NCBI RefSeq assembly: GCF_000189635.1
Contig: NW_002476341.1
Span: 114,895 to 178,894, forward strand
Length of the DNA: 64,000 bases
From: Tetrahymena thermophila SB210
Lineage: Eukaryota; Ciliophora; Oligohymenophorea; Hymenostomatida; Tetrahymenidae
Direction of reading: 5' to 3'
Below, in pieces: positions 6,411 through 48,141 of this stretch; positions within the stretch are counted from its first letter, which is position 1, and every line of letters begins with the position of its first letter. Made by a program: the position numbers and the translations under genes. The notes beneath the pieces are model-generated. The model was not told where the DNA came from. It was given only the letters and a program-made list of their open reading frames with translations, and searched no databases.

Positions 6411-9400
6411 ATGACTGAACTCATTTAAATTACAGACTTAGAACAAGTGATTTTTCATTATTAATTTTTGTTTATTAATTCCATTTTTTTAAATAAAAAG
6501 TTATTAAGCTCTGAAATATCATCTCGCACCACTCTTCTAATAAATCTTCAGTAAAAAAAATAAAATAATGTTTTCTTAACTAAATAAAGGCCTTTAATTA
6601 CAAAAATTTAAAAAAGTTAGAAAGAATTCTAAGTATTTTGATGACTTGATTGCTTTATTTATTAACAAATAACACATATTTATTTACTATGATATATTAA
6701 TTCATTAGATATTAATATTATCCTTAAGATTTACTTGTTTTATATTTACTTCTACTAACTTTTTCAAAACTAATTTCAATTATTTTTACAAAATGTAATA
6801 GTAATAAATAGATAGGAGAAAAGGGTTCTTCAGACTTGGGCATTGCTTTGGCAAAATCTAATAATCTTCTTAATTTAGTACTCCAACTGGCGTAATATTA
6901 TCTGTTTTATTTAATTATTTTTAATACGATTTAAAATAATTAATTATCAAAAAAAATAAATATGAAAAAAATGCAAGATTTTTCATTCTTTTCGTTTTAT
7001 TTGTAGATTAATTTTAATTATTTGCTTAACAAAATTAATAAATTTTTATTTTTTTCATTTTAATTATAAAATTTATACAAATTATAAAAAGAAATTCAAT
7101 TGGCGCTAATGGTGGATCAAGCTTAGGCTCTGCTTTAGCAAAATGTGTTAATCTTGAAACTTTGACATTAGATTTGAGGTAAACATTTTTAATTAGATTT
7201 ATTTCTATTAAAAACATGAAAAGATAGATAGATAGATAATATATTAAAAATATTTAGCTTTTTTTATTTTCAGAAGTGTAAAACTAGATTCTGTTGATTA
7301 ACATAGATTTATTTATAAAGATTTTTGTCTTTTTCTTCAGCATTTAATTTATATCTAAATTTTCTATACTATCTTCTTTTGGAATATTTTTTCTAAAGCT
7401 TTTTCAAATTAAACTTATTATTTTATCAGAAAAAATCAATTAGGTCCAAAAACTGTCTTAGACTTAGGCTCTGCTTTAGCAAAGTGCTCTAATCTTACAA
7501 TTTTGTCACTTGATCTCTCGTAAAAATATTTTCATTTATTTAATTATGTTTTTACAAAACAAAATCATAGAAAGTACTTAAAATACTAAGATGCTTTAAT
7601 TTATTTAAAGGACCAATAATTATTTCTAGAGCTTACTTTCATAAAACTTTGGAATTTATCCTATTTTTATTTTTTTATTATTAATTTTTTATAGCTTCTT
7701 TCTAATATAAAATATTAATAAATAAGAGAAAACAAAATAGTTGACAAGGGCTCATCTGACTTGGTTTCTGCTTTAACAAAGTGCTCAAATCTCTCAACTT
7801 TAGAACTCTATCTTGAGTAAATTCATTTTAATATTTTTATTTTCGAAAGAAAAAAGTTTTTAAAAGACTTTTTTATTTGATTGCTTATTATTTTTAAAAG
7901 TAATTAATATATAAATCTAGTAGTATCTTTTCATTTTAATTTAAATATTTTTATATTTTTTATTTCTTTAGTTTTTTCTTCATTTACTTCTAATTAATCT
8001 TTCATTAAAATGAAAAAATGTTTTCTTGTAATACAAAAAGGAGCAATAAAATTGGAGATAAGGGAAGTTCAGACATAGGCTAAAATATATCGAAATGCCA
8101 AAAGCTCTAAAATTTGAAGCTTGCTCTTTCGTAAAAATAATTTATAATCATTTAACAATTTCATTCACTGTAGAATACCCTTAAAGATGCAAAAAAAGTC
8201 GGATTTTTTTTATTTTCTCAAAAAATGATGTTTTTAAAAATATCGGTAATAACAAAAAAACTACAGAATTCACCGATAAATTATTATATCTTATGTTATA
8301 ATTGTTTTAAATATTTCAAAATTTTTGTGTTTGATTTTTTCTTATTTACATTTATAAATCTTTTTGTAATATTCGATATACATTCATTCAAAATTGTAAA
8401 AAGAGATAACAAAATTGGAGCTTCTGGAGCTTTAAATTTAGGTTCTGGTCTAGGAAAGTGCAAGAACCTGCAAATATTGACAATTGAAGTCAAGTAAAAA
8501 GAGTTTATTAACATTTATTTGTTTTATAAAAAATAAATTTGATAGTCAAAAAAACAAAAAAATGAAAGAAAAACCATTAAAAGATATTTTTCTTATTTCT
8601 TAAATTTCAACTTGTGCTTCCTTGACTATTTATTATTGTTTAACATTTTATTAAATTAGAATAATTATTTTTTACTTCTTGCTATTTTTATTAACTATTA
8701 CTAAAAATAATACTAAGAGGGAACAAATTCGGCGGATAGGGAGCATCAGATTTTGGAACTGGTTTAGCAAATTGCTCTAATCTGAAAACATTAACCCTCA
8801 ATCTGAGGTAGAATCAGTTTACTTGTTTCTAATAAATAATACTTTTTTTTTATTACTTCTAAATTTTATTCTATTTTAAGCTACTTTATTTAATCAAAAA
8901 GATATTTATTTTAATATTCTAATTTGAATTTACCTATTTATATTATCAAATTTTTCTTTTATTTTCAATTTTTTTGTTTGTTTTAACCAATGATATTTCT
9001 TAAAATATAAAAGAAAAAATAATATTGATGAAGATGGTTTATCAAACTTAGCTTCCAGTATAGGAATGTGTACTAATCTCACAATATTAACTCTCGATCT
9101 TTCGTAATTATAGATTATTTCTTTGATTTATTAATTTATGAAAACAAATAATTTAAAAATAAGAATAAAATATTCCTTATTACAAACCTTTTTCTACAAA
9201 TACTTTTGTTAGCTCATTTACTTGTTTTTATCCTTTAATTTTAAATTTTGATATTTTTTTTAGAATAAAATATTTTTTATTTATTTTAAATAATTAATTT
9301 TTTATTGAAAATAAGTGAGAATACTATTGGAGAAATTAAAAAATGCAATATAGGTTCTTCTTTAGCAAATTCTACTTAGCTCACAACAATAAAACTAGAC

Positions 9401-11908
9401 TTAAGGTAAAAATTGTTATTTACCTTTCTCTTTTATTAGTAAATTATCAATAGATCTATCTAGATAAGCAAAAAGAAAGAAATAAAGATATTAATTCCTT
9501 ATTTTCTAAACATTAAATTTGCTTTTCTAACTTAAAACTTTAATTTTTATTTTTTCTATTATAACTTACTAATTTGAAAAAAATTTAAAAGTAACAATTA
9601 AATTGGTGACAGTGGTGCCTCAAACTTAAGTTAAGGGTTAGGAAGGCTTACTAATTTACTAAATTTATAACTAGAACTTAAGTAATAATAATTATTTATT
9701 TAAAAATAAAATTACTCTTATTTATTTTAATTAGTAAATAAATATAAATAAAGGATTTAATTATTTATTTTAATAATTTTTTTGTGTGTTTTTTATTATT
9801 TTTTTAATTATTTTCCATAATTTTTAATTTAAACTTTACATTTTAATCCTCAACAATTATTTTTTCTATTTAGAAATATTTTTATATTTACAAACAATTC
9901 TTTAAAATATCAAAAGATCTAATAAAATTGGTGGCCAAGGATAATTAGATTTATGTTCTAATTTGTTACAAATTCCTAATCTCTTAAATCTGACCTTAAA
10001 CCTTGGGTAAAAATAATTTGTATTCTAAAATTTATACTTAAGTTATTAATTTGAATAAGCAAAAAGTAAGAAAAAATTCAAAATATTTTATCTTTTTTGC
10101 TTATTTAATATTATAAAAACTTTACTGGTTTATATTTTTTAGTTTTATATTAATTTCCATTAGCTTTATAGTTAATTTTTTAAACACTCTTTTAAAGAAT
10201 GATTTGTTTATTAAATGATATTTTATCTAAAATATAAAAAGGGAAAACGAATTTGGTAAATTAGATGTTTCGTGCTCAAGTTAAACTTTAACTTATTTGA
10301 GTAATCTTTTAGCTTTGCATTTAGTCCTTAAGTAAAAAATAATTATCTTAATCTGTTTCTTGTGGTTTATATTTTTTTTAAGCAAAAATTTTGATAATAA
10401 TAATATTATCTTGGTAAATACTTTAGCTATTTCATTATTTATAAAATCATCAAGTGCCTACTTTTTAATTTATTAATAGTTAGTTATTTTATCCTACTTT
10501 TCTATTAATTATTTACTTCATTTTTAAGTATTTTTTAATAAAAATTTCAAAATAAATTCATTTATTTTTTAAATCCATGTAAACTATTTTCTTACTATTA
10601 TTAAAAGAGGAAATGAAATTAATGATAAAAATATATCAGATATAGTTTAAACTTTAGCAAAATAAACTAATCTCTCAAATTTGTCTATTGATTTAGCGTA
10701 ATAATAATTTATTCAGAAGCTCTCTTGCTTTGAAATTAAATTTATTTATTTAGTTAATTTTTTAGCTTCTTAATTTATTATAATTTTCAATTTATTTTAT
10801 CACTTTATATTTGAAGTGGAAGGGGGTAAAATATTAAATAATACACTGAAATTTAAAAATTTACATGTCTTTCTTATTCATTTTTAATTTAATTTTAATA
10901 TTAATGTAATCAACTTCCACCCTTTAAATTTTTCCTTCATATATATCTTTAACTTTTTTACTGCATATTTTATAAAAAATAATAAAGCCTTAACTAAATT
11001 GGTGCATATGGTGTATAAAGCTTAATTTCTAGTTAATCATAATGTTCTAAACTCTAAACATTGACAATAGATCTTTCGTAAAATTTTTTCATTTATTAAT
11101 TTAATATATTTTTTTCACAATAATTTGGTTATTTTTACATATAAAATTTATTTTTATGTTTTAATTTATTAATTAATTATTTCTACTTTAAATTAAAGCT
11201 ATCATTATTAATTTTTATTTATATTCGTTTTTATATTAAATTTTATAATTAACATTATCCTTGAAAACAAAAGGCACAATTAAATTGAAGAATAGAGTGA
11301 ATTAGACTTAGATTTTAATATATCAAAGTGCAATAATCTCTCCAATTTAACAATTTATCTTCAGTAATAATTATTTATTTATTTATTTATTTACTTTTAT
11401 TGGATTTTATTTTATAAATTCCAATTGCAAAATTAACAAAAAGAAAGAATTTAAGAATATTTTATATGACAGATCCTCAAAGTATGGCTACTTAGATAAC
11501 TATAATAGATTTATCTTATTTTTTAGCTATAAATTTATACTTTAATTTCAAACTTATTATTTTTTCATTTTTATTTTTATCAAAATACTTTCACATATAA
11601 AAATTATTTCTAAAACTTCTAAATAAAAGCCATAGTTTTATTGGTGGAAGAAATGCAGAAAAAATAGTTAATAGTTTGGCAAAATGCTCTAGTCTCTCTT
11701 TTTTAACTCTCCACCTTTAGTAATATTTTCTAAATCTTTTATAATTGTTTGTTTTTGAAATAAAGACTTATCCTACTTGATAAAAATATTTAATACATTT
11801 ATTATAAAAAATAATTATAGTGGCAATGATATTATCACACCAAATAATTTAAGGACAAAAATGCTTAAAATGAGAAAATTAGTCGAATTGGTTTTTTATT
11901 TATGGTGA
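6411..11908 (+). CDS. Leucine-rich repeat protein, one repeat per exon, no kinase domain
   Basis: ATG 6411 opens a 140-nt first exon (MTELIQITDLEQ...) ending at 6550. It is followed by about 16 exons of close to 90 nt, each starting one base into a codon and ending two bases into one, so any exon can be lost or gained in frame. Each encodes one RNI-type leucine-rich repeat of the form NxIGxxGAxxLGxxLxKCxNLxxLxLxL. Exon starts lie near 6802, 7090, 7430, 7724, 8040, 8401, 8717, 9013, 9314, 9592, 9916, 10238, 10604, 10986, 11272 and 11628. The terminal exon (~11821) ends in MLKMRKLVELVFYLW and TGA 11906-11908. Introns (200-280 bp) are diverged from each other, so this array is old compared with the kinase-LRR arrays downstream. 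No kinase domain was found upstream. LRRs of this type bind proteins; the partner is unknown. Repeats 10-15 are weaker. Confidence 0.75.
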
Positions 11909-15033: not shown

Positions 15034-18000
15034 ATGTAGCAAAGAATCGAGGAAATTGCAAAAAAGACCTAGGGTTGCAGTATCGATAATCAAAGAATCT
15101 TTATGTTCTTCTAACAGCTTAGGAAGTAGCAGAAACATTACAATGATTTTGAATATTTGGGAAATGGATCATTTGCTTTAGTAATCAAAGCTTTTAACAA
15201 GAATTCTCAAAGATAAGTTGCACTAAAAATTGTTCTATGCAACTAAAATGAACCTAGCGAGGAGGAGTCTGTTTTGAAGGAGTACAATTTACTTTTGAAG
15301 ATTAAGAATTGTCCATACCTTGTCGACGTCTACAATCATTTCTATGTCTATGAAGAAAAAATCATAATCGAAGATTCAGATGATGAAGAATAAATAGCTG
15401 AAAAACCTAAAAAGCAAAATGAAAAATTGAAGTCCTTCTTAGTCTTAGAACTCGAATTTTGCAAGAGTAAAGATTATTTTGCCATTTTATATTTAAATTT
15501 TAACAAAAAAGTAGATCCAAAAGCAGATTACTATGAATAATATCATTCAGTTTAAACGTATGATTAAATTTCAACTTTATGATAATAAACTCCATTTTAA
15601 GCGTACCAATTTAAAGGGATTAGAGTGTTTACCTAAATTTTAAAGGTACGCTCAAATATTCTGATGTTAAATGAAGACTTTATTGATAATTTTGATTATT
15701 AAGCATTTAGATAAATTCATCATAATAATCAAATTAATGAATAATGAATGAAAATAGAAAGGAAAGATGTTTTACTTTTTCTTGTTTTTCAAATCAACTA
15801 ATTTATATATTGATTGACTTTGATATCAAGATATTTTTCTTAAATCAATTAATTAACAAAATAAATGAATATACCTTATTCATTTATTTATTTCATCTCT
15901 TTAGTTATCATATATCATGAATGAATTTCATTCAAAAATAATATGAAAATTTAATAAGGTGATTCATTCATTTTTACATAAAATTTGCATCCTTCATTCC
16001 ACTTAATACTGACATATGTACTATCATTTCCTTTAACAGATATTTTATTTATTTTACTTAAGATTCATTCATTTTACAAAAATTTTATCATGGATCTTAT
16101 TTCATTCATTTTGATGAATTTTTTCTAACTAATTTTTGCAATAAAAATCTTAATTTATTTTGATGAATTTACTAAATATTTTTAAATTTTATTTTTATCA
16201 AACAAAACTATCAATATTGTCATCATACATCTAAATAAAGGATATTTTATTTAACATTATTTATATTTATATTTTTTATCATCCCTTTATATTTTTGATA
16301 TGCGCAAATATTTTTTAATTAATAATAAATAAATTTATGGCAAATATAATATTTATTCATTATTAATCATATAAAACAAAATAAATTGAATTTTATAATA
16401 AATTATTTAGATTATGCAATTACTAATTAACAAAATGAGAAATAAATAATAAATTTAAGCAATATTTAAAAGAATTATAACAATTAAATAAAATAAACAC
16501 CTTTTTATGTTTTTATTTAACAAGGAAGAGATAAAAATAAGAAAATTTACAATATTAAAGGCAAAACCCAAATAAAAATATTATTTTAAAAAGCTTTAAG
16601 ATAAGCTTGATTTTATTATTAAATATATAAAAATAGAACAAAATTTATCATTTTTTCTAAATATTTTTATATTTTAAAAATAAATATTTATAAATAATCA
16701 TATTATTTACATCCATTTTAAATTTAAATAGCAAATTTAGCAGATTACTTCAGATATTGTAGACATTAGAAATAATATCCTGATAAGTAAATGAAAGAAA
16801 TCCTAGCTATTCAAATTCTTGATGGAATATCCTTCCTCCATTAGAAATCGTTCCTACATCGAGATATCAAACCAAACAACATCCTTCTTTAGTTTGATAA
16901 CTAAAACAATCCGATTATCAAGATTTGTAAATATTTTTTATTTAAATTTACATATTTTAAAGAAGATACTCTACTCTTAATTAAAAAATTCAAAATAGAA
17001 ATAAATAATTTTTAATAATTTAAGATTTTATTGATTTTAATTAAAAATTATTAAATTTTAAACAAAAAAATTAAATAAAACATGAGGAAATGTAAATTTA
17101 TATTTCTATCTCTGAATAAAAATTTTAAATAAACTTTATCAATAGCTTATTTAAAGAAAGAAAAATTTAGAAATTTTCTTAAAAATAATATTTTTTCTCG
17201 ATTTTAGATCGAGAGTTAACAAAATCAATAATAATATTTCTTAAAATTTTATGATTTTATATTTGATTAAATAAAAAAGATTAGTTTTATTTAAATCTCC
17301 CTAAAATAATTTTTAATATGAAAGCTTGATTATTATAAGGTCTCTAACATTGCAAATATACTTTTTATTTTAAGAAATCAATAATATAAATCTTAATAAA
17401 ATAATATTTTATAGGTGATTTAGCTTTTGCTTCATTCATATCTCCAAGCCAATCATAGATCCACACTAAACAGGTAAGTTAATTCTTTAAGTTTTTTTAT
17501 AATCTAAAAGAAAAATATAAAAATTAGAAAGGAACTAGAGAATATATGCCTCCAGAATTATAGTCAGACATATGGAGAAAAGAAGTAAACTTTTTTTATT
17601 TTAATAGTGATTAAAAAAAACATTTTTAAAGAGTGACTTATTCTAAGTTGGGATAGTTCTATTAGAACTTGATAACATTGAAAAATTCGATTTCTTGAAG
17701 ACAACAGATGATGAAAGGTATGCTCTAAGAAATGGTTAAATATTCCCAACTTATTTTCTTGACAGAAAATCTAACATTTTCTAAATTGCTTAAACATTCT
17801 TGAATCCTAACTTTAAAGAACGTTAATCTGCATAAAAGTTTCTTGAATAGCTTCTATGGAAAGATCCTTAATATCAAAACATTGAATTGAGTTCTATCAT
17901 CATTATGGTAATAATTAATCTTATTTCATCACTTAGAAATTAAAAAAAGGAATGTTTTAAGATTTGAGACATTAAAAACTTGTTAATAAATAATTCATTT

Positions 18001-21000
18001 AAACTAATCTTCTAATTTTAAGTTTTTAAACAGTTTTATTAACTTTTAATTTAACTTCTTTTAATATTTAAATGGTATATTTAGCATTTTATAACTTAAA
18101 AAATAAATAAAAATTTATCAATTTTGTAATAATTTAAAATATTAATTTTAACTTATCAGCCATAATTAGGGAAGAAAGTACATGAAATACTAAATACTAA
18201 TTCTCAGTAAGCATAAGGTTTGAATGCAAGTTAAAATATTCAAGAATCTATGTTGAAAGTAATTAATTTGTTTCTCAAAAAATATAAATAATTGGTTCAA
18301 AATTTAATTGCTGAATTTCTTCAGAAGCTAAATTTTTTATCTATCATAAATCTAATTAGTTTCTTTAGATTATATAAATTTATCATTTTTAAAGAAATTA
18401 ATTAAAATATTACAAAATATATTTATCTATCTACCTATCTGCTTTAAAAATTATTAAGATTAAAGATTTAAATTTTATTTTAAAAAAAGTCTTAAATCAT
18501 GCACAAGGTAAGCTAGATCAATTAATAAAGTTAAATCAGTTAGATTCAAAATTCTGTTTAAGCCATGTCATTATCTTAGATTTATAATGTAGAAAATATT
18601 TTATAAATTTATGAATTATATTTTTATTGCTTTTTCAAAATTAGGATTAAATTTAGAGCTTGCTCAATGATTACTAAAACAAGATAAAAATTAAAAAAAT
18701 TTTTACAGAAGATGAATTGAAAAAAGCAATGCTCTAACTGTTTAACAAACAAAATTATAGTAAGAGCTTTTATCTTATTAGCCAAGGAGGGAAAGGACTT
18801 ATCATTGGTGCATATAATTTAAAAGATAAAAGAGATTGTGTACTTAAAATATAAAAAGTTTAATCAAAATCTCGTATTATAAAAGAAATCAGCATTCTTA
18901 AATGCTGTCAAATGCCTTTAATTGTAAAATTATATGATTTCTTTTATCTTAATGTTGTTTAAAAGGAGGATTTCGTAGTCTACGAGTTAGAAAAATGTGA
19001 TTGTAAATAAATAATTACTTTTTACTTTAATATAATAGGAAGAGTGTGGTCAAGATAGATTTTTTAAGGACCATGTTTTATAATTTTTTTTAATTAAGTT
19101 GATTGAAAAAAATTTATAATAATTGGTACTTTAAAAAATCTGTTTTGAACACACTTTTCCTATTGTATATTTTATTCTTAATTTTTGTTAAATTATATAT
19201 TTATTTATTGAATAGGTGACCTTAAGGCTTACTTAGAAAAAAAGTAAAATGATTAGCAATTCACTTAAGAAGTTAAAGAAGAAATTGCTATTTAAATGAT
19301 GGATTCTGTTAATTACATACATAAACATAATATCATCCACAGAGATATTAAGCCTTAAAATTTTTTAGTTTAAGAAAGCAATAGCTCTATCCCAGCAATC
19401 AAATTAAGTAATTATTCTCTTTATGCTATTAATTTGTCAATATTTTATTTAATTAAATTAAATTAATTTAATGTTATTTAAACATTTTAATAACTTAATT
19501 GTATTTTTATACATTTTAATTTGATTTTATCTATAATAAAATAATATTATTAATATATTTGTATTATTTAGCTTCATTTATCTTTTATTTTTATTCTTAG
19601 GTGACTTTGATGAAGCTGATTTTTTAAGATTAGATGAAGAGTATGGTTATGATTCTAATGGAAATTGGATTCTATAATAATATTTTGCACCTAATTGTGA
19701 TGGGGTAAATAAATAAAAATGAATTTAAAGTAAATTTTTATTATTTTGGTATAAGTGTGGAACATTTGGTTATTGGGCACCTGAGTAAATATATGAAAAG
19801 TAATCAACAATAGAAGTAAATTAATTAGATTAAAATTTTATTAGATTTGAATGAAATTTTTTTTATATTATTTAAAGTGTGATGTATTTAGTCTAGGAAT
19901 ATCTTTATCGTTGTTAGATAACTTTTAAAAATTATAACCAGTTTATCATTATGAATGTTTAAAAATTGGAAAATAATTTGTGGAACCTTTTGAACCTTAT
20001 AAGGGCTAACTAGATTTAATTAATAGACAAACTAAAATTTATTAGAAAGCAATTATGTACTCATTGGTTTATGATAAATACAAAAGAAAAGATTTGCCAT
20101 AAATTTTAGATAATTTCAAATAAAATTATTTTTCTAAAGAGATAAAATAAGTAAGAATAATCATTTTATGTTTTTCTAATTTTTTTAGAATATTTTAAAT
20201 TTTTTTAATTTAAGGCTATTATTTGACAGAAATAAGTTTATTTATTTATTTTTATTAAATTATTCGATTAGATTTCTTTAATTAATGATCATTAAATTGC
20301 TTAAATCAGTTTTAAGTAATTATATTAACTTTTTATTAATTATTAAATTTTTTTAAATTAAAATATTTGTGAAAATTGATTAGGCTTGTATTAAAATTAG
20401 TGCAAGACTTGTTTTTTAGTATTTCGATTTATATATGTTTTAATTTAATTTTTTCAAAAATAGAAAATTGTTTTTTAAAAATTTAAATTGTAATTAACTT
20501 TTGATTGTCAATAGTCAATGTGTTAATTTTTGATAATTCGATAAAATTTTCAAAACAAATTCAAAGAAACAAACAAACAAAAAAACATATTTTAATAATA
20601 TTTTTGAAGGGATAATAAGATTGGTGCAGAAGGAGCAAAACATATTGGAATGAGCTTAGAAAAGTGTCAAAATATCACTTCTTTGAATCTCAATCTATGG
20701 TAATTTTGTTAAATATTTATTTGATTAAGTTTGTTAGTTGAAGTTGTAAAATATGTAAGGCCGTAAAGAAGTAAATAAGTGATTAATTTGTTAAGCAAAA
20801 GATGCTTTTGATTATGAATGAATGAATGAATTCATTCAATCACTCATTTCTTCATTCAATCACTCATTTCTTCATTCAAATATCTTCTTTTTTTTTATTT
20901 AATTAATTACTTACATACTCATCCAGCTACTTATTTACTTACTTATTTTAATTTTCAATTTTATTATGATTTTCAAAACAAATTCAAAGAAACAAACAAA

Positions 21001-22573
21001 CAAAAAAACATATTTTAATAATATTTTTGAAGGGAAAATAGAATTGGTGCAGAAGGAGCAAAACATATTGGAATGAGCTTAGAAAAGTGTCAAAATATCA
21101 CTTCTTTGAATCTCAATGTTAGGTAATTTTGTTAAATATTTATTTGATTAAGTTTGTTAGTTGAAGTTTTAAAATATGTAAGGCCGTAAAGAAATAAATA
21201 AGTGATTAATTTGTTAAGCAAAAGATGCTTTTGATTATGAATGAATGAATTCATTCAATCACTCATTTCTTCATTCAAATATCTTCTTTTTTTTTATTTA
21301 ATTAATTACTTACATACTCATCCAGCTACTTATTTACTTACTTACTTATTTTAATTTTCAATTTTATTATGATTTTCAAAACAAATTCAAAGAAACAAAC
21401 AAACAAAAAAACATATTTTAATAATATTTTTGAAGGTACAATTACATTGGTGCAGAAGGAGCAAAACATATTGGAATGAGCTTAGAAAAGTGTCAAAATA
21501 TCACTTTTTTGAATCTCAATCTATGGTAATTTTGTTAAATATTTATTTGATTAAGTTTGTTAGTTGAAGTTGTAAAATATGTAAGGCCGTAAAGAAGTAA
21601 ATAAGTGATTAATTTGTTAAGCAAAAGATGCTTTTGATTATGAATGAATGAATGAATTCATTCAATCACTCATTTCTTCATTCAAATATCTTCTTTTTTT
21701 TTATTAAATTAATTACTTACATACTCATCCAGCTACTTATTTACTTACTTACTTACTTACTTATTTTAATTTTCAATTTTATTATGATTTTCAAAACAAA
21801 TTCAAAGAAACAAACAAACAAAAAAACATATTTTAATAATATTTTTGAAGGGAAAATAGAATTGGTGCAGAAGGAGCAAAACATATTGGAATGAGCTTAG
21901 AAAAGTGTCAAAATATCACTTCTTTGAATCTCAATCTATGGTAATTTTGTTAAATATTTATTTGATTAAGTTTGTTAGTTGAAGTTGTAAAATATGTAAG
22001 GCCGTAAAGAAATAAATAAGTGATTAATTTGTTAAGCAAAAGATGCTTTTGATTATGAATGAATTAATGAATTCATTCAATCACTCATTTCTTTATTCAA
22101 ATATCTTCTTTTTTTTTATTTAATTAATTACTTACATACTCATCCAGCTACTTATTTACTTACTTACTTACTTACTTACTTATTTTAATTTTCAATTTTA
22201 TTATGATTTTCAAAACAAATTCAAAGAAACAAACAAACAAAAAAACATATTTTAATAATATTTTTGAAGGTACAATTACATTGGTGCAGAAGGAGCAAAA
22301 CATATTGGAATGAGCTTAGAAAAGTGTCAAAATATCACTTCTTTGAATCTCAATCTATGGTAATTTTGTTAAATATTTATTTGATTAAGTTTGTTAGTTG
22401 AAGTTGTAAAATATGTAAGGCCGTAAAGAAGTAAATAAGTGATTAATTTGTAAAGCAAAAGATGCTTATGATTATGAATGAATGAATGAATTCATTCAAT
22501 CACTCATTTCTTCATTCAAATATCTTCTTTTTTTTTATTAAATTAATTACTTACATACTCATCCAGCTACTTA

Positions 22574-22621
<48 letters not shown>

Positions 22622-23419
22622 TTTTAATTTTCAATTTTATTATGATTTTCAAAACAAATTTAAAGAAACAAACAAACAAAAAAACATATTTTAATAATAT
22701 TTTTGAAGGTAAAATAACATTGGTGCAGAAGGAGCAAAACATATTGGAATGAGCTTAGAAAAGTGTCAAAATATCACTTCTTTGAATCTCAATGTTAGGT
22801 AATTTTGTTAAATATTTATTTGATTAAGTTTGTTAGTTGAAGTTGTAAAATATGTAAGGCCGTAATGAAGTAAATAAGTGATTAATTTGTTAAGCAAAAG
22901 ATGCTTTTGATTATGAATGAATGAATTCATTCAATCACTCATTTCTTCATTCAAATATCTTCTTTTTTTTTATTAAATTAATTACTTACATACTCATCCA
23001 GCTACTTATTTACTTAGTTACTTACTTATTTTAATTTTCAATTTTATTATGATTTTCAAAACAAATTCAAAGAAACAAACAAACAAAAAAACATATTTTA
23101 ATAATATTTTTGAAGGGGAAATGAAATTGGTGCAGAAGGAGCAAAACATATTGGAATGAGCTTAGAAAAGTGTCAAAATATCACTTCTTTGAATCTCAAT
23201 CTATGGTAATTTTGTTAAATATTTATTTGATTAAGTTTGTTAGTTGAAGTTGTAAAATATGTAAGGCCGTAAAGAAGTAAATAAGTGATTAATTTGTTAA
23301 GCAAAAGATGCTTTTGATTATGAATGAATGAATGAATTCATTCAATCACTCATTTCTTCATTCAAATATCTTCTTTTTTTTTATTAAATTAATTACTTAC
23401 ATACTCATCCAGCTACTTA

Positions 23420-23455
<36 letters not shown>

Positions 23456-24551
23456 TTTTAATTTTCAATTTTATTATGATTTTCAAAACAAATTCAAAGA
23501 AACAAACAAACAAAAAAACATATTTTAATAATATTTTTGAAGGGATAATAAGATTGGTGCAGAAGGAGCAAAACATATTGGAATGAGCTTAGAAAAGTGT
23601 CAAAATATCACTTCTTTGAATCTCAATCTATGGTAATTTTGTTAAATATTTATTTGATTAAGTTTGTTAGTTGAAGTTGTAAAATATGTAAGGCCGTAAA
23701 GAAGTAAATAAGTGATTAATTTGTTAAGCAAAAGATGCTTTTGATTATGAATGAATGAATGAATGAATTCATTCAATCACTCATTTCTTCATTCAAAACA
23801 TACTCATCCAGCTACTTATTAACTTACTTATTTTAATTTTCAATTTTATTATGATTTTCAAAACAAATTCAAAGAAACAAACAAACAAAAAAACATATTT
23901 TAATAATATTTTTGAAGGAATAATAAGATTGGTGCAGAAGGAGCAAAACATATTGGAATGAGCTTAGAAAAGTGTCAAAATATCACTTCTTTGAATCTCT
24001 ATCTATCGTAATTTTGTTAAATATTTATTTGATTAAGTTTGTTAGTTGAAGTTGTAAAATATGTAAGGCCGTAAAGAAGTAAATAAGTGATTAATTTGTA
24101 AAGCAAAAGATGCTTTTGATTATGAATGAATGAATGAATTCATTCAATCACTCATTTCTTCATTCAAATATCTTCTTTTTTTTTATTTAATTAATTACTT
24201 ACATACTCATCCAGCTACTTATTTACTTACTTACTTACTTATTTTAATTTTCAATTTTATTATGATTTTCAAAACAAATTCAAAGAAACAAACAAACAAA
24301 AAAACATATTTTAATAAAATTTTTAAAGCTACAATAACATTGGTGCAGAAGGAGCAAAACATATTGGAATGAGCTTAGAAAAGTGTCAAAATATCACTTC
24401 TTTGAATCTCAATATATCGTAATTTTGTTAAATATTTATTTGATTAAGTTTGTTAGTTGAAGTTGTAAAATATGTAAGGCCGTAAAGAAGTAAATAAGTG
24501 ATTAATTTGTTAAGCAAAAGATGCTTTTGATTATGAAAAAATAGGAAATGA
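15034..24551 (+). CDS. Dual protein kinase plus leucine-rich repeat protein, copy 1 (3' end truncated)
   Basis: Exon 1 (15034-15466) encodes a kinase N-lobe: glycine loop YLGNGSFALV, VALKIV lysine, hinge FLVLELEF. After a 1,265-bp intron come NLADYFRY and the catalytic loop HRDIKPNN (~16857), then DLA in place of DFG, and GTREYMPPE. A short linker leads to a second kinase: loop QGGKGLIIGA, CVLKIQ, IIHRDIKPQN (19336-19365), DFD in place of DFG, and GTFGYWAPE. Both kinases keep the ATP lysine and catalytic aspartate. The coding exons between the two kinases stay in frame, so I read one gene. Ten 90-nt LRR exons follow (20610-24418). The terminal exon found in copy 2 is missing. The frame ends either by retention of the last intron (TGA 24441) or by splicing to AG at 24544 and TGA 24549-24551. 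Likely a signalling kinase with a protein-binding LRR tail. No membrane span or signal peptide was seen. Confidence 0.8.
15467..16731 (+). other. Long first intron of kinase-LRR copy 1
   Basis: At 1,265 bp this intron is much longer than the others in the window. Donor GTAAAG follows ...LELEFCK; acceptor AAATAG precedes the exon starting NLADYF. Reading straight through the donor stays open for about 38 codons to TGA 15580-15582, and this is conserved in copy 2. The 3' part is rich in TTCATT words and otherwise featureless. Confidence 0.7.
19029..19172. repeat. Intronic inverted repeat, ~60-bp arms, copy 1
   Basis: The left arm begins ATATAATAGGAAGAGTGTGG and the right arm ends CACACTTTTCCTATTGTATA. 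Internal blocks such as AGATTTTTTAA are matched by TTAAAAAATCT. Only a few bases separate the arms. It fills most of the intron between the exons ending ELEKCD and starting DLKAYLEKK. It may be a small foldback (MITE-like) element or an intron hairpin that brings the splice sites together. Both copies of the gene carry it, so it predates the 12-kb duplication. Confidence 0.8.
20610..24535 (+). repeat. Array of ten near-identical LRR exon cassettes
   Basis: Ten 90-nt exons start at 20610, 21033, 21436, 21851, 22270, 22709, 23116, 23543, 23918 and 24329. The period is 375-439 bp. Each encodes xNxIGAEGAKHIGMSLEKC then QNITSLNLNL and one variable residue. Introns are almost identical between units, differing mainly in the number of GAAT and CTTA tetranucleotides. 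A palindrome (GAATGAATTCATTC) recurs in most introns; the ninth unit's preceding intron lacks the TCTTCTTTTTTT block. Variation lies mostly in the codons next to the exon borders. Confidence 0.95.
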
Positions 24552-30000: not shown

Positions 30001-33000
30001 GAGTTCTATCATCATAATGGTAATAATTAATATTGTCTGACCACTTATAAATTAAAAAAAGATATGTTTTAAGATTTGAGACATTTTAAACTTTGTTGAT
30101 AAATAACTCATTTAAATTAATCTTCTAATTAAAAGTTTTAAAACAGTTTTATTAACTTTTAATTTAACTTCTTTTAACTTTGAAATGTGCTATATATATC
30201 ATTTTATAGCTTAAAAAACAATAAAATAAATATTTAATTAAAATTTATATTTTTCTTTTTCATTTAAATAAATTTTGATTGTAGTTTAAAAAAATATTGA
30301 AAATAATTTAAAAATTAATTTTAATTTATCAGCCATAATTAGGGAAGAAAGTACATGAAATACTAAACAGTAATCCTCAGTAGGAATAAGGTCTTAATGT
30401 AAGTTAAAAAATTTAAGAATCTATGTGGAAAGTAATTAATTTATTTCTCAAAAAATATTTGGTTCAAAATTTAATTGCAGAATTTTTTTAAAATCTAATT
30501 AAAATCCTTAAATAAAATAGATTTATCATTTTTAAAAGGTATTAATTAAAATATAATAGAATATATTTATTTATTTATCAATCGGCTTTAAAAAATTATT
30601 TTAATACTAAAATAAATTATTATTTGTTAAGAATATAAAATTTCAACAAATTATTAATCAGTTATTAAGTTATCTAAGATTTAAATTTTATTTTTAATAA
30701 AAGTCCTAAATCATGCACAAGGTAAGCTAGATCAATTAAAGCTAAAATTCTATTTAAGCCATGTCATAATCTTAGATTTATAAGGTAAAAAGCATTTTAT
30801 AAATTTATGGATTATATTTTTAATTGTTTTTTAAAAATTAGGTTTAAATTTAGAGCTTGCTAAATGACTACTAAAGCATGATAAAATATAGAATTTTTAC
30901 AGAAGATGAATTGAAAAAAGCAATGCTATTACTATTTAACAATACAAACTATAGTAAGAGCTTTAATCTGATCAACCAAGGAGGGAAAGGAGTTATTATA
31001 GGTGCATATAATTTGAAAGATAAAAGAGATTGTGTACTGAAAATATAAAAGGTTCAATCAAAATCTCGTATAATAAAAGAAATTAGCATTCTTAAATGCT
31101 GTCAAATGCCTTTAATTGTAAAATTATACAATTCATTTTATCTTGATGTTGCTAAAAAGGAGGATTTCGTAGTCTATGAGTTAGAAAAGTGTGATTGTAA
31201 ACCATTACTTTTTATTTTAATATAATAGGAAAAGTGTAGTTTAGACAGATTTTTTAAGTACAAATTTTTATAAATTTTTTTTAATCAAGTTGATAAAAAA
31301 TTTATAAAAATTGGTTCTTAAAAAATCTGTCAAGACTACACTTTTCCTATTATATATTTTATTCTTAATTTTTGTTAAATTAGAATATATTTATTATTTA
31401 TTTATTGAATAGGTGACCTTAAAGCTTACTTAGAAAAAAAGTAAAATGGTTAGCAATTATCTTAAGAAGTTAAAGAAGAAATTGCTATTTAAATGATGGA
31501 TTCTGTTAATTACATGCATAAACATAATATCATCCACAGAGATATTAAGCCTTAAAATTTTTTAGTTTAAGAAAGCAATAGCTCTATCCCAGCAATCAAA
31601 TTAAGTAATTATTCTCTTCATGTTGTTAATTTCTCAATATTTTATTCTAATCACATTAAATTAATTTAATGTTATTTAAACATTTTTTGACTAAATTTTA
31701 TTTTTATACATTTTAATTAGATTTTATCAATAATAAAAATAATTTTATTATTATATTTGAGTTTTATTTTTCTTTTATTTTTATTCTTAGGTGACTTTGA
31801 TGAAGCTGATTATTTAAGATTAGATTAAGATTTAGATTACGATCATTTCTTTAATACAGGAGATTGGACTGTAAAAGAATATTTTGCACCTAATTGTGAT
31901 GGGGTAAAAAATAAAATAAATTTTAAGTAAATATTTATTATTTTGTTATAAGTGTGGAACATTTGGTTATTGGGCACCTGAGTAAATATACTAAAAGTAA
32001 TCAACAATTGAAGTAAATAAATTAGATTAAAATTTGATTAGATTTGAATGAAATTTAATTTAAATTACTTTAGAGTGATGTATTTAGTCTAGGAATATCT
32101 TTATCTTTGTTAGATAACTTTTAAAAATTATAACCTTTATATCATTTTGAAAGTTTAAAAATTGGAAAATATTTTGCGGAAGCTTTTGAACCTTATAATG
32201 GCTAATTAGATTTAATTAATAGAAAAACTAAAATTTATTAGAAAGCAATTATGTACTCATTAGTTTATGATAAATACAAAAGAAAAGATTTATCATAAAT
32301 TTTAGATGATTTCAAATAAAATTATTTTTCTAAAGAGATAAAATAAGTAAAATAATAATCATTTTATGTTTTTCAAATTATTTTAGAATTTTTATTTTTC
32401 AATATTTCTAATTTAGTGCTATTATTTAACAAAAATAAGTTTATTTATTTATTTTTATTAAATAATTCGATTAGATTTCTTTAATAAATGATCATGAAAT
32501 TGCTTAAATTAGTATAAAGTAATTTTTATAACTTTGTATTATTTATTTAATTTTTTAAATTAATATATTTATGAAAGTTGATTATACTTGCCTTAAAATT
32601 AGTGTACGACTTATTTTTAAGCATTTTGTATTATATAAATTATAATTAAATTAAAAAAAAACTTTAAAATTGTTTTTTAACTATTTATATTGTAATTTAG
32701 TTATAATTGCTATTAATTTTTGATAATTTGATAAAAATTTCTAATCAAATTCAAACAAACAAAAAAACATATTTTAATAATATTTTTGAAGGGATAACAA
32801 CATTGGTGCAGAAGGAGCAAAACATATTGCAATGAGCTTAGAAAAGTGTCAAAATATCACTTCTTTGAATCTCAATCTTGAGTAATTTTGTTAAATATTT
32901 ATTTGATTAAGTTTGTTAGTTGAAGTTGTAAAATATGAAAGGAAGTAAAGAAGTAAATAAGTGGTTAATTTGTTAAGCAAAAGATGCTTTTGATTATGAA

Positions 33001-34700
33001 TGAATCAATTCATTCAATCACTCATTTCTTCATTCAAATATCTTCTTTTTTTTTATTTAATTATTTAATTAATTAATTACTTACATACATACTCATCCAG
33101 CTACTTATTTATTTTAATTTTCAATTTATTTTATTATGATTTTCAAAACAAATTCAAACAAACAAAAAAACATATTTTAATAATATTTTTGAAGGGGAAA
33201 TCAAATTGGTGCAGAAGGAGCAAAACATATTGCAATGAGCTTAGAAAAGTGTCAAAATATCACTTCTTTGAATCTCAATCTATGGTAATTTTGTTAAATA
33301 TTTATTTGATTAAGTTTGTTAGTTGAAGTTGTAAAATATGAAAGGAAGTAAAGAAGTAAATAAGTGGTTAATTTGTTAAGCAAAAGATGCTTTTGATTAT
33401 GAATGAATCAATTCATTCAATCACTCATTTCTTCATTCAAATATCTTCTTTTTTTTTATTTAATTATTTAATTAATTAATTACTTACATACATACTCATC
33501 CAGCTACTTATTTATTTTAATTTTCAATTTATTTTATTATGATTTTCAAAACAAATTAAAACAAACAAAAAAACATATTTTAATAATATTTTTGAAGGGA
33601 TAACAACATTGGTGCAGAAGGAGCAAAACATATTGCAATGAGCTTAGAAAAGTGTCAAAATATCACTTCTTTGAATCTCAATCTTAGGTAATTTTGTTAA
33701 ATATTTATTTGATTAAGTTTGTTAGTTGAAGTTGTAAAATATGAAAGGAAGTAAAGAAGTAAATAAGTGGTTAATTTGTTAAGCAAAAGATGCTTTTGAT
33801 TATGAATGAATCAATTCATTCAATCACTCATTTCTTCATTCAAATATCTTCTTTTTTTTTATTTAATTATTTAATTAATTAATTACTTACATACATACTC
33901 ATCCAGCTACTTACTTATTTTAATTTTCAATTTATTTTATTATGATTTTCAAAACAAATTCAAACAAACAAAAAAACATATTTTAATAATATTTTTGAAG
34001 GGGAAATGAAATTGGTGCATGGAAATGGAAATGGAAATACTCGCACATATAATTTTTTGAAATTGGTGCAGAAGGAGCAAAACATATTGGAATGAGCTTA
34101 GAAAAGTGTCAAAATATCACTTCTTTGAATCTCAATCTATGGTAATTTTGTTAAATATTTATTTGATTAAGTTTGTTAGTTGAAGTTGTAAAATATGAAA
34201 GGAAGTAAAGAAGTAAATAAGTGGTTAATTTGTTAAGCAAAAGATGCTTTTGATTATGAATGAATCAATTCATTCAATCACTCATTTCTTCATTCAAATA
34301 TCTTCTTTTTTTTTATTTAATTATTTAATTAATTAATTACTTACATACATACTCATCCAGCTACTTACTTATTTTAATTTTCAATTTATTTTATTATGAT
34401 TTTCAAAACAAATTCAAACAAACAAAAAAACATATTTTAATAATATTTTTGAAGGTACAACAACATTGGTGCAGAAGGAGCAAAACATATTGCAATGAGC
34501 TTAGAAAAGTGTCAAAATATCACTTTTTTCAATTTATATGTGAGGTAGGCTTTTTTTATATAAATATTATATTTTATTTAAGATTTTTTAATTTAAATTA
34601 TAAAAATAGAAAGGGAAACAATTTGAATGAAAAAGCATTTTTAGATTTAAACTAAATTTCTAATAAGCTTTATTAATTATAAAAACTATAGATTTAATGA
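27096..34700 (+). CDS. Dual protein kinase plus leucine-rich repeat protein, copy 2 (complete)
   Basis: Same order as copy 1. Kinase 1 has YLGNGSFALV, VALKIV, HRDIKPNN, DLGFASF and GTREYMPPE; here the DFG position is DLG, whereas copy 1 has DLA. The linker carries SQIMHKVSQINQ. Kinase 2 has QGGKGVIIGA, CVLKIQ, IIHRDIKPQN, DFD and GTFGYWAPE. Five LRR exons follow (32792, 33195, 33598, 34001, 34455), then a terminal exon (34610-34700) ending ...KLQIQ and TGA. An alternative start six bases upstream (27090) gives MNMQQ; I chose 27096 because it matches copy 1. The fourth LRR exon is 141 nt because of a 51-nt in-frame insertion. Four of the five repeats read HIAMSL where copy 1 reads HIGMSL. Probable role: signalling kinase with LRR-mediated recognition. 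That is inference from domains only. Confidence 0.85.
27529..28864 (+). other. Long first intron of kinase-LRR copy 2
   Basis: Counterpart of 15467-16731, about 1,336 bp. The read-through frame after the donor is again open for nearly the same number of codons and similar residues (NFNKKVDQKTDYYEQY), ending in TGA. Confidence 0.7.
31219..31358. repeat. Intronic inverted repeat, ~60-bp arms, copy 2
   Basis: Same position as 19029-19172. The arms run from ATATAATAGGAAAAGTGTAG to CTACACTTTTCCTATTATAT, with matching inner blocks ACAGATTTTTTAAG and CTTAAAAAATCTGT, and a further AATTTTTATAAATTTTTT pairing. The loop is about a dozen bases. Pairing is tighter than in copy 1. Confidence 0.85.
32792..34544 (+). 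repeat. Array of five LRR exon cassettes
   Basis: Units with period near 403 bp (454 after the inserted one). Introns are near-identical to each other but distinguishable from copy 1 (AAATATGAAAGGAAGTAAAG here against AAATATGTAAGGCCGTAAAG there). So each array has been homogenised within its own copy after the duplication. Confidence 0.9.
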
Positions 34701-37353
34701 ATATATTAAAATAAATATTTAACTTTTATGCTAACTAATTAATATGTTATTTAAAATTATTAAAAATTTGTGAAATAATTTTTTATAAAGAGTATTTATT
34801 GAAGAAAAAATAAATAAATTTGAACAATATAAAATATAAGATTGACATATTTAATTTTATATTATAATATTTATCAAATTTATTTGCTATTAATTTAATA
34901 TTTTAAAAATAATTAAAAATCGATTTAATTTAAATTGTAAAGTTTATATTAAACATTTATAAAAACTTGAAATACAATAAAAATATCAGCGAAAATAAAA
35001 ATAAATTTTATAATTATAAAAACTTTAAAATAATTTCTTAAGCAAGATGATAATATACTTTAGATTTTTTTATATTAAAAATACTAATACTTAAAGTGTT
35101 TTTTATATTCAAATCAGAGATGAACAAACATATTACTACCCGCTTATCAATATAGATACCCGTGAAATGCACTACATATCACAATTAAATTAAGGTTTTT
35201 TTATTTTTTCTATTTTTGAATCTGTATTTAAAAAATAAAAATGAAAGGTAAAGTCATACTTAAATAATTTAATATTTTGTTAATAATTATAAATTTTTGA
35301 ATAAAATATTTATTTTCTATATATAAAAAATATCAAGAAAAAGAAGAAGATTAAGATATAAATTAAAGAAGAAAAAGTATTGCTATTTGTAGCAAATTTT
35401 TTCTGAAGCTGAGAAGCTACATGTTAATATTAATTAAAAAATAAATTAATTAATTTTTAAATTTTATGTTATTTTATATTAATATATTTATTTATTATTT
35501 AATTTAAAATAAATAATTTTAATTTTATTTTATAACAATTAAATAATAAAATATAAATTTAATGTTAATTAATTTTATGTTGTTTTTCCTTTTCTTATTT
35601 TATTTAATTAATATTAATTAATTTATATATAAATAAATTGTGAAATCTATCATTATATTCATAATTATTTTTAAATTCATTTTTTGTTTATTTTTTTTAT
35701 CAACATTTTAACAAATTTCATTGATTAGATACTTACTCTGAAAACAGTTTCCTGTCTGTATTATGATTAATATTTATAAGTATTTTAAAATAAATTACAC
35801 AGAAAGACAAATGAAGAAATGTATTAATTTTCATAAAACGGAAGATTAAGATTTATCAAAATTATTTTACTTATTTTATTCAGGAATTGTTAAATTATTT
35901 AAAATGGAAATCTTTTGATTTTGAAAGGAATGGTCTGAGTTGAAAGACTATTAAAAAGAAAATTCCAAATTAAAATCTTTAGATTAGCAAATAAACAATA
36001 ATACCATTTTTATCTGCAGACAATTCTCAATCATTCAGAAGGATTTAAACAATTTCTTTTTTGAATCATGACATAATAATATCAATAAAATAAATTTAAA
36101 TGATGATAAGATTTTGTTGAGATAAGTAATTTTTGATTCATGGCATATTAATTATGAGATTTATGTATAAAAATCACAATAAAGTGCAAATCTCAAAAAA
36201 TTTCAAATCACAAATCTCTAATCTCAAAATATTTCCAAATTATACTTAGTTAGTTTTTATAAATAATAAAAAAAATTAAAAAGTAAGAAAAAAATTTATT
36301 AATCAATATTTAAAATACATAAAATATATAAATATATTGAGTATTTTCTTTTAATTAATTCAATTTTTTTTATTTCTTAAAATACTATTTTTAATTCCTA
36401 ATTAATTAGATTAATTATCTATCATTTTTTTTCACTTTCTTATCTATTTTCTATTATTTTTCTTTGTAGTTCTAAATAAAATACAGCATCTCCAAATTTA
36501 TATAAATAATTATTTTTTAAATAAAATAGAGAGAGTATCTTTAAATTAAAAATAAAATAAATAAATAAAAAATATTTTATTATTAATATTATTTTACATT
36601 TAGATAGGTATCGAAAAAATGAACAAACATCCTTCATTTTATTCAAAATATCTGCATCTATCCAGTATAAATATACTTATTATCTTTTTATTATTTTAAT
36701 ATTGCATATTGTTCACATTAGCATTTTTTAGGATTCCATCTATGAATCTTAAGATTTGAACTTTTTTAGATTTCCACTTTTTTTTGATTTTTATCAAAGC
36801 ATATCTCAATTATAAAGATTAAAATCTAATTAATAATAGCGATAAGATGTTTTATAAAAGTATTAATAACACCTGTAGCAGTAAGAAGCACTACTATAAC
36901 TATCACAAAAATTAACATAAAATTGAAAGAATCTCAACAAAATGCTTTTGAATCAATAAAAAAATAGTAATAGTCAAAAAAATGGAAGTATCGATTTATT
37001 TAAGAACTGGTATTATTTATTTTTATTACTGGCTTTACATCTTTCAATTTAATATTATTATATCAAAATTAATTATTAATTAAAATTTTTATTTACCTTA
37101 GATTTAATTCCAAATTTTTTTTTAAATTAGAAATAAATTAAACAATTAAATTTGTATTAGAAAATAAATATAAACAATAAAATTTTATTATTATTAGTTC
37201 CTTAAAAGCAAAAACCTTAATTTATTGTATTATTTATGCTTAATAAAATAGTTTATTCAAACACAAATTATAAATAAATGAATGAATGAATGAATAAACA
37301 CCAAAAACCGTAATACAAGGTGGCCATAAATTGTTAATTGACTGAAATTGTTA
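34701..37353. other. Region with scattered coding-like segments, no gene resolved
   Basis: Mostly A/T-rich, but four plus-strand segments have gene-like composition and likely splice borders. One lies at ~35113-35190 (TYYYPLINIDTREMHYISQL). A second is at ~35335-35420 (YQEKEEDQDINQRRKSIAI). A third is at ~35810-36080 (MKKCINFHKTEDQDLSKLF, then WSELKDYQKENSKLKSL after a possible 45-nt intron). A fourth is at ~36845-37010 (ESQQNAFESIKKQQQSKKW). They may be exons of one small gene or remains of a decayed one. I could not join them and recognise no family. 36150-36250 holds a cluster of CAAATCTC words. Confidence 0.3.
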
Positions 37354-38328
37354 TTTATTTATTTTATTTAGAATTTTTTAATTTGGTGAAAAAATTTAAA
37401 AAATAAAAATAGCTGTTTTTTATATAAATATTTCTATATTTGTTTGATAAATTTAAAATTAGATAAAAAGCAAAATAAATAAAAAATTTGTTCTAAAAAA
37501 TTTATAATTAGGCAACAAATAAAATAGAAATAAATTTAAAAAATGAATATGCGAAATGAAAATTTTTTATAAATGAATTTGAATTAGTTTGAAAAAAAGA
37601 TTGAAAAAACAAACAAAAAAGTTGATAATTAAATTAACTATGCAAACTAGCTAGCTATAAAACTTTTGGTTTATAAAATTTATTTATTTTATTTAGAATT
37701 TTTTAATTTGGTGAAAAAATTTAAAAAATAAAAATAGCTGTTTTTTATATAAATATTTCTATATTTGTTTGATAAATTTAATTTTAGATAAAAAGCAAAA
37801 TAAATAAAAATTTTGTTCTAAAAAATTGATAATTACACAACAAATAAAATAGAAATAAATTTAAAAAATGAATATGCGAAATGAAAATTTTTTATAAATG
37901 AATTTGAATTAGTTTGAAAAAAAGATTGAAAAAACAAACAAAAAAGTTGATAATTAAATTAACTATGCAAACTAGCTAGCTATAAAACTTTTGGTTTATA
38001 AAATTTATTTATTTTATTTAGAATTTTTTAATTTGGTGAAAAAATTTAAAAAATAAAAATAGCTGTTTTTTATATAAATATTTCTATATTTGTTTGATAA
38101 ATTTAATTTTAGATAAAAAGCAAAATAAATAAAAATTTTGTTCTAAAAAATTGATAATTACACAACAAATAAAATAGAAATAAATTTAAAAAATGAATAT
38201 GCGAAATGAAAATTTTTTATAAATGAATTTGAATTAGTTTGAAAAAAAGATTGAAAAAACAAACAAAAAATTTGATAATTAAATTAACTATGCTAACTAG
38301 CTAGCTATAAAACTTTTGGTTTATAAAG
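37354..38328. repeat. Tandem repeat, 3 x 325 bp
   Basis: Three head-to-tail copies with a period of exactly 325 bp (anchor ATTTAGAATTTTTTAATTTGG at about 37367, 37692 and 38017). Copies 2 and 3 are nearly identical and copy 1 slightly different. Each unit ends with ACTAGCTAGCTATAAAAC. No convincing coding frame. Confidence 0.9.
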
Positions 38329-40652: not shown

Positions 40653-41229
40653 TCTAATTAATTATTTAAAATATCTTTAATTTTTTCTACTTAATTAATA
40701 AATTTGTTTGAAAATTGAAGTAAATGCAAATTGTTAATAAAATTGGATCAATCCGTTTAGATTAATTTTCATTCTATTAATTACAGAAACTCCTAGAAAA
40801 AAATAACCCTAAGAATGAACAATCAATCAATCATCATCAATATATCTAAATATTTTAGTCATTATTCATTATTTACCACTGGTAGAAATAACTAATTAAG
40901 TCTTTTATATAAATATTTATTAAGACTATTTATTATTTTTCTATTCTTAAATATTTATTTGTAATTATTTTTTTATTTTTAAATAAATTATCATTTTATT
41001 TTATAAAATCTAAATAAATTTCTTAAAAAATTATTTTTTAATTCTATTTAATTTTTATAAAGTATTTTTATTTTATTCTATTAATCTTATTTATTTATTT
41101 ATTATTTTAATGAATTTAAATCCAATACTAAATAAAATTAAAGTATTTATATTTAAACATAAATTTAATTTCATTTTTATTAAATATTTCATTCATTTTT
41201 ATCTTCTATCTAAAATTATTAAGATTATT
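40653..41229. other. AT-rich spacer upstream of the RAP gene
   Basis: Promoter side of the RAP gene. It grades into low-complexity A/T sequence from about 40900. Nothing recognisable apart from a short AATCAATCAATCATC run at 40819-40840. Confidence 0.5.
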
Positions 41230-48041: not shown

Positions 48042-48141
48042 NNNNNNNNNNNNNNNNNNNNNNNNNNNNNNNNNNNNNNNNNNNNNNNNNNNNNNNNNNN
48101 NNNNNNNNNNNNNNNNNNNNNNNNNNNNNNNNNNNNNNNNN
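48042..48141. other. Assembly gap (100 N)
   Basis: Exactly 100 Ns, a placeholder of unknown size. The left flank matches copy 2 at about 50830 (REJ region), and the right flank matches copy 1 at about 45495 (cysteine-rich region). By comparison with copy 3, the missing piece should be the 3' half of copy 1, an intergenic spacer of about 1 kb and the 5' exons of copy 2. Confidence 0.98.

Follow-up and report, generated by a model that had tools for sequence, protein, structure and literature searches.

The 64,000-nucleotide stretch of Tetrahymena thermophila SB210 DNA analyzed here (the window; assembly GCF_000189635.1, contig NW_002476341.1, positions 114,895 to 178,894, forward strand) harbors an array of ten leucine-rich repeat (LRR) exons at positions 20610-24418, preceded by protein-kinase exons; array and kinase exons are together referred to as W1. 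The units of W1 are alike at the nucleotide level, introns included, and differ at a small set of codons near the exon ends. Our analysis, which draws on one assembly of a single strain and reads all patterns from sequence alone, gives good support to a contrast, in an already known type of array, between a homogeneous scaffold and the diversification of particular positions in each repeat, a contrast that recurs in most of the young groups of such arrays examined.

All ten W1 exons are exactly 90 nt long, lie consecutively on the plus strand, and have AG before and GT after them. Codons 1 to 3 read D-N-K in units 1 (20610-20699) and 8 (23543-23632), E-N-R in units 2 (21033-21122) and 4 (21851-21940), Y-N-Y in units 3 (21436-21525) and 5 (22270-22359), Q-N-N in unit 6 (22709-22798), G-N-E in unit 7 (23116-23205), N-N-K in unit 9 (23918-24007), and Y-N-N in unit 10 (24329-24418). 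The right edge is L-W in units 1, 3, 4, 5, 7 and 8, V-R in units 2 and 6, L-S in unit 9 (with TAT at codon 28), and in unit 10 I followed by TC, which would give S if read into the intron; an exon after unit 10 was sought and none was found. This reading depends on the ciliate code, in which the TAA that opens unit 6 is Q, and the introns appear to be phase 2, since at each of the nine junctions the frame joins the last two bases of one exon to the first base of the next. Each unit is frame-neutral to skip. The spliced W1 query matches LRR_6 in Pfam, and its matches in the PDB are ciliary LRR proteins, 5irm/5irl (which we take to be NOD2) and RanGAP. Mean repeat identity is ~89% over 299 residues (summed heterozygosity ~3.2 of 30 positions), and W1 thus lies above the >85% identity over at least 100 residues of the NWD/HIC criterion.

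The kinase exons extend over 18729-20144 (plus strand; matched pieces 18729-19004, 19212-19406, 19600-19713, 19759-19833 and 19878-20144). Two of the three pieces scanned gave Pfam PF00069, once at 9.2e-13 and once at 2.3e-5, a match that falls short of the curated threshold, and the third gave no Pfam family; no NACHT or NB-ARC domain was found in the three upstream pieces scanned, the 5' part of the gene being only partly mapped. Kinase exons and LRR array presumably form one gene with one transcript, and from this position and architecture the product is likely to be a kinase acting in recognition or as an adaptor. For a linker exon between the kinase and unit 1, a three-paralogue alignment yielded ambiguous candidates only.

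To quantify the contrast between exon edges and core, 15 sites were designated as edge (base 1, codons 1, 3, 28 and 29, and the last two bases), a choice made after a first-pass annotation of the sequence had described this variation. In W1, 12 of the 15 edge sites are variable against one of the remaining 75 (Fisher p = 2e-11). Pairs of units differ on average by 0.530 in codons 1 and 3 and by 0.222 in codons 28-29 plus the last two bases, compared with 0 in codon 2 (AAT in all ten units), 0.003 in codons 4-25, and 0.010 and 0.000 in the 40 bases of intron upstream and downstream. Within codons 4-27 the only difference among the ten units is a TCT to TTT change in codon 24 of unit 3, and the introns differ by a few single-nucleotide polymorphisms (at +137, +158, +162, +183 and +199) and by tetranucleotide runs of variable length. 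The contrast is seen in the units starting at 20610, 21436 and 23116, which are identical over the 60 upstream and 150 downstream flanking bases sampled and yet encode D-N-K, Y-N-Y and G-N-E; the three W1 pairs at zero flank distance all fall among them. Accordingly, the first-pass description of a constant core with variable edges was confirmed across the ten units, as were the residue pairs it listed around the fixed N, while its invariant introns proved nearly so; variation as frequent in introns and core as at the edges, which it had named as evidence to the contrary, is not what W1 displays.

Screening of 26 fetched stretches and the window for 90-nt LRR exons (AG/GT flanks and a match to 8 or more of 12 consensus residues, which misses degenerate copies such as that at 34052) yielded 282 exons, of which 115 fall in young groups, 89 in old groups and 78 were left unclassed, with the young/old split and group membership set by eye from the screen. 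The groups named below are GAD (47 exons of GAD type, taken from 11 fetched loci), C49 (13 exons), C91b (nine), W2 (four; a tandem paralogue of W1 in the same window) and CIN, which belongs to a large wider family (1026 first-look candidates, 40 of them scored). Edge/core contrasts, associations and step counts refer to W1, GAD and/or CIN, and between-array differentiation also to W2 and C49. Edge sites were again the more variable in GAD (14/15 versus 32/75, p = 2e-4) and CIN (14/15 versus 40/75, p = 0.003), and in GAD nucleotide diversity (pi) is 0.514 in codons 1 and 3 versus 0.030 in the core and 0.053/0.088 in the intron flanks. Overall, codons 1 and 3 vary more than both intron flanks in eight of the nine young groups. 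Edge divergence is already ~0.33 at less than 0.5% intron divergence (seven W1 and 23 GAD pairs; CIN has no such pairs), and among nine GAD pairs at zero flank distance the left edge differs in eight and is shared in one (L016:8388/9229).

In the LRR strand and loop motif LxLxLxxNxI, outward and inward residues alternate, and positions 28, 30, 1 and 3 are predicted to face outward. Mean amino acid heterozygosity over the nine young groups is 0.85 at position 30, 0.84 at position 1, 0.66 at position 3 and 0.62 at position 28, as against 0.26, 0.07, 0.21, 0.11 and 0.05 at positions 26, 27, 29, 2 and 4. Variation therefore tracks the outward/inward alternation of the repeat rather than nearness to a splice site, and the splice site falls in the middle of the predicted face. 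The "exon-edge codons" of the first-pass annotation do vary, but the variable positions 28, 30, 1 and 3 alternate with the more conserved positions 27, 29, 2 and 4. Across 82 junctions (C91b left out) we counted 75 distinct combinations of x28-x30-x1-x3. No association was detected between a right half-face and the left half-face of the next exon (W1 p = 0.95, GAD 0.36, CIN 0.23); an association between codons 1 and 3 of the same exon is present in W1 (p = 0.011) and in GAD (p = 0.005), and none was detected in CIN (p = 0.50).

A tandem paralogue of W1, denoted W2, lies downstream on the same strand, with kinase exons at 30923-32340 (a region ~87% identical to that of W1) and an LRR array at 32792-34544 comprising four exons (starting at 32792, 33195, 33598 and 34455) plus a degenerate one at 34052; a third copy is found on C49, and kinase exons lie upstream of all three arrays. 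Between W1 and W2 the kinase shows a synonymous divergence (dS) of 0.18 and a ratio of nonsynonymous to synonymous divergence (dN/dS) of 0.26 over four of the five pieces, and the kinase pieces are under purifying selection (dN/dS 0.18-0.26). Against this silent divergence of 0.18, the core silent sites of W1 are invariant, and codon 13 is GGA in 10/10 W1 units versus GCA in four W2 copies and GGA in the degenerate one; each array has therefore been expanded or homogenized after the gene duplication. The degenerate fourth copy of W2 (34052-34141), which lacks an acceptor AG and a normal left edge (it reads FFE) and shares its codon 13 with W1, is probably a decayed unit or a recombination scar. 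In 14 of the 15 W1/W2 units, which have a common donor, read-through into the intron would append the same seven residues, QFCQIFI, to the junction residue and then meet a TGA; in the last W2 unit, where the donor is another one, the intron reading continues.

Turnover of the arrays presumably proceeded by unequal crossing-over and/or gene conversion, two routes that look alike in these data, as do conversion and recent tandem expansion. Differentiation between W1, W2 and C49 is 0.46 in introns versus 0.05 in codons 1 and 3, and between GAD arrays 0.20 versus 0.03. The GAD left edge showed no linkage to the flanking intron (upstream p = 0.64, downstream p = 0.58), and where GAD units have a left edge in common, their cores are closer (p = 0.0025) and their introns are not, implying that exons and introns have been reassorted. 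Units 2 and 4 of W1 share the sole A at intron +162 and differ in their right edges; the succession of E-R and Y-Y in units 2-3 and again in units 4-5 would fit duplication of a two-unit block. Two proposals of the first-pass annotation call for revision: the "strong conversion" it invoked is indistinguishable from recent tandem expansion, the array having turned over after the gene duplication by either route, and the reuse of a limited set of edge sequences is more simply explained by block duplication for E-R and Y-Y, with some left edges nevertheless recurring on other contigs.

Within arrays, third-base differences in codons 1, 2, 3 and 4 number 33, 0, 33 and 0 of 45 pairs in W1, 45, 5, 47 and 0 of 82 pairs in GAD, and 67, 0, 7 and 0 of 95 pairs in CIN; in C91b codons 1, 2 and 3 give 0, 0 and 15 of 36 pairs. 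Left edges in C49 (L009, minus strand) are of two haplotypes, AAT-type (G-N-x) and AAC-type, while codon 2 of W1 is always AAT. By parsimony counts, nonsynonymous change per site in codon 1 exceeds silent change per site in the core ~95-fold in W1, where the divisor is a floor of 0.5 as no core silent change was seen, 22-fold in GAD and 14-fold in CIN. Pairs that share a residue at codons 1 and 3 seldom use different codons in W1 (0/11), W2 (0/4), GAD (1/31), CIN (8/48) and C91b (1/34), and for young arrays taken together the figure is 25/163 versus 61/199 for old arrays (Fisher 8e-4). Counts of the codon-wise kind that the first-pass annotation had suggested show an excess for codon 1 over core silent sites (14-95 fold), with the ratio within codon 1 indecisive and C49 and C91b departing from the pattern.

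Our results suggest, as the probable explanation, recent tandem turnover combined with diversifying selection on the presumed ligand face of the LRR array. The array would belong to a ciliate (Tetrahymena-type) LRR-kinase, each 90-nt exon encoding a single interlocked repeat of 30 residues that resembles those of ribonuclease inhibitor, and unequal crossing-over and/or conversion would multiply or replace units such that introns and scaffold codons stay near-identical in young arrays. The outward residues of the strand end and the following loop (28, 30, 1 and 3) would change fast under diversifying selection, with the Leu, Asn and Ile positions between them nearly fixed. An exon would then carry two half-faces, joined at each splice junction into a composite x28-x30-x1-x3 patch, and the series of patches may set the ligand specificity of a recognition or adaptor kinase. 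The first-pass proposal of diversification on a homogeneous scaffold is in this respect supported by eight of nine young groups.

Several observations weigh against this explanation. The exception among the nine groups is C91b, in which edge pi (0.218) is below that of the introns (0.303 and 0.385), and in CIN differentiation is reversed, being 0.12 in codons 1 and 3 and 0.05 in introns. Position 29 is variable in W1 (0.51), positions 6, 7, 9 and 15 vary as well in CIN, and the CIN core has a dN/dS of 1.68. Codon 2 is not spared at its third base in W2 (different in 3/6 pairs) or in C49, where codons 1, 2 and 3 differ in 46, 48 and 47 of 78 pairs and same-residue pairs use different codons in 15/35 cases, like old arrays. 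Steps within codon 1 are nonsynonymous to synonymous (N:S) in proportions of 45.7:4.3 in GAD and 31.2:4.8 in CIN, so that synonymous steps are frequent too, and because they are raised in codon 1 the N:S ratio within the codon is no proof of selection by itself. Recombination compromises the trees, the groups were formed by similarity of their cores, a criterion that in itself depresses core diversity, loci within one group are not all independent, and duplicated units lower the different-codon figure for young arrays.

The main competitor, which we regard as unlikely though deserving of attention, holds that old edge alleles are retained or exchanged between arrays, with short tracts homogenizing introns and cores and selection doing no more than keeping the edge differences that already exist. 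It accords with the nearly flat course of edge divergence as intron divergence rises, and with the recurrence of edges among arrays: of the 30 different 9-mers seen at GAD left edges, 7 are present at two or more of the fetched loci (six of these on different contigs), GGAAATGAA (G-N-E) is common to W1 and C49, and the right edge GTTAG is common to units 2 and 6, on common flanks. The pairing of AAT with G-N-x edges and of AAC with most others in C49 and W2 resembles 9-nt haplotypes, codons 1 and 3 are associated in W1 and GAD (not CIN), and the silent base of C49 codon 2, as variable as codons 1 and 3, keeps this explanation live. However, same-residue pairs in young arrays mostly use the same codon (25/163 differ versus 61/199 in old arrays), and intron diversity in GAD declines toward the exon with no hitchhiking shoulder, one that splice constraints may mask. 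Retained or exchanged old alleles may thus supply part of the edge diversity. Relaxed constraint, under which exposed residues merely drift and the rest is constrained, would account for the variability of positions 1, 3 and 28 in old arrays too, but edges are saturated at a point where introns and silent sites have hardly diverged, and the expected edge divergence at or below that of introns is seen only in C91b of the nine groups. In the ten W/GAD/C49 arrays with at least four exons (CIN and C91b left out), positions 1 and 3 of young arrays are at the variability of old ones (ratios 0.94 and 0.98), as are the little-variable positions 27 and 29 and in part position 28, whereas the young/old ratio is only 0.04-0.09 at positions 11, 13, 14 and 23, which are about as free in old arrays. 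As these latter positions stay low in young arrays, relaxed constraint alone fails; simple drift at exposed sites was rejected on this comparison and on edge saturation at near-zero intron divergence, C91b excepted, and we consider it improbable.

We give similarly little credence to a targeted or templated mutagenesis of exon ends, like that of lymphocyte receptors and possibly acting in nuclear development. Multi-base codon replacement beside identical flanks, the raised synonymous steps within codon 1 and the variable silent base of codon 2 in C49 and W2 are what such a process could leave, yet variation alternates with side-chain facing rather than following splice-site distance, and W1, GAD, CIN and C91b have few or no differences at the third base of codon 2 (0/45, 5/82, 0/95 and 0/36 pairs). 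Equally doubtful is a genome-wide renewal of ligand-face codons by a dedicated process at strand-end codons, tied to array turnover or to development of the somatic nucleus; were it true, a single-celled eukaryote would possess a repertoire of LRR receptors in which one scaffold may bear recognition faces that differ between sibling lines. An assembly artefact, with collapsed or chimeric units, is the least probable account. Young arrays do break the assembly: at nine contig ends that could be read next to such arrays (the starts of L011, L012, L016, L018, L019 and L021 and the ends of L013, L015 and L017), the last 40 bases contain no telomere-like repeat, and unit numbers at these ends are therefore lower bounds; but W1 has more than 20 kb of contig on each side, the same pattern is present on many contigs, and mis-joins would not restrict differences to particular codons.

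Tandem turnover with diversifying selection on a presumed contact surface, as favored here, would be an extreme case of a known tendency, as accelerated divergence of new protein repeats is described as general in Persi 2016 (PMC5120217). The arrays themselves belong to a described type: W1 resembles the Tetrahymena 90-bp-exon LRR arrays (group III) of Xiong 2019 (PMC6564038), which have exons of exactly 90 nt, phase-2 introns, tandem arrangement and kinase fusions, and W1 is like them also in nucleotide-level repeat identity. That article describes clonal expansion and ectopic recombination and a gene-wide Ka/Ks below 1 (median ~0.4 in the youngest LRR categories), and in its main text, supplementary logos apart, the terms 'positive selection', 'hypervariable', 'diversifying' and 'variable position' are absent. 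The regime of diversification has a close parallel in the WD40 repeats of the Podospora NWD genes (HET-D/HET-E), for which Paoletti 2007 (PMC1805685) reports concerted evolution within and between genes and four codons that diversify pairwise around a constrained codon, with 55 combinations in 69 repeats as compared with 75 in 82 junctions here; in NWD, however, WD40 repeats sit in another receptor architecture, not LRRs with a kinase, and Dyrka 2014 (PMC4986451) records no LRR in fungal NOD-like receptors. The PRDM9 zinc-finger array, with a dN/dS of 9.9-13.9 at three positions in human (Oliver 2009, PMC2779102), likewise has near-identical tandem units and hypervariable contact codons, but these are DNA-binding zinc fingers of one gene, as opposed to LRRs in many genes with introns between units.

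No publication joining 90-bp-exon LRR arrays with edge diversification was found, judged by titles and abstract openings among sources covering few subscription papers; array type and regime are both known, and their combination is one not met in the literature found. Singling out four positions per repeat points to a presumed binding face and opens the recognition hypothesis to testing. If the favored explanation is true, the LRR-kinases of a unicellular grazer join fungal WD40/ANK/TPR repeats and PRDM9 among arrays that couple turnover with contact diversification. The variable lymphocyte receptors of lampreys are likewise built of LRR modules, with variable concave-face residues; what distinguishes them is somatic assembly from germline cassettes.

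The window is low in guanine plus cytosine (13-29% per 2 kb; the genome comprises 101 Mb in 445 contigs), and an Rfam scan at gathering threshold and a bacterial-code tRNA scan of it gave no match. An older, diverged LRR array lies at 6802-11719, made up of 15 exons of 90 nt with scores of 8 or more out of 12, and kinase-like matches follow downstream of it at 15115-15348 and 16728-16925. An open frame at 3285-4259 on the minus strand matches Peptidase_M16_C (Pfam E 2e-15), and three long open frames carry REJ domains, at 46958-48982 (Pfam E 4e-16), 50058-53525 (7e-32) and 57718-61200 (1e-33). Tandem repeats with 98% match occupy 37353-38327 (three copies of 325 bp) and 41228-41863 (six copies of 106 bp).

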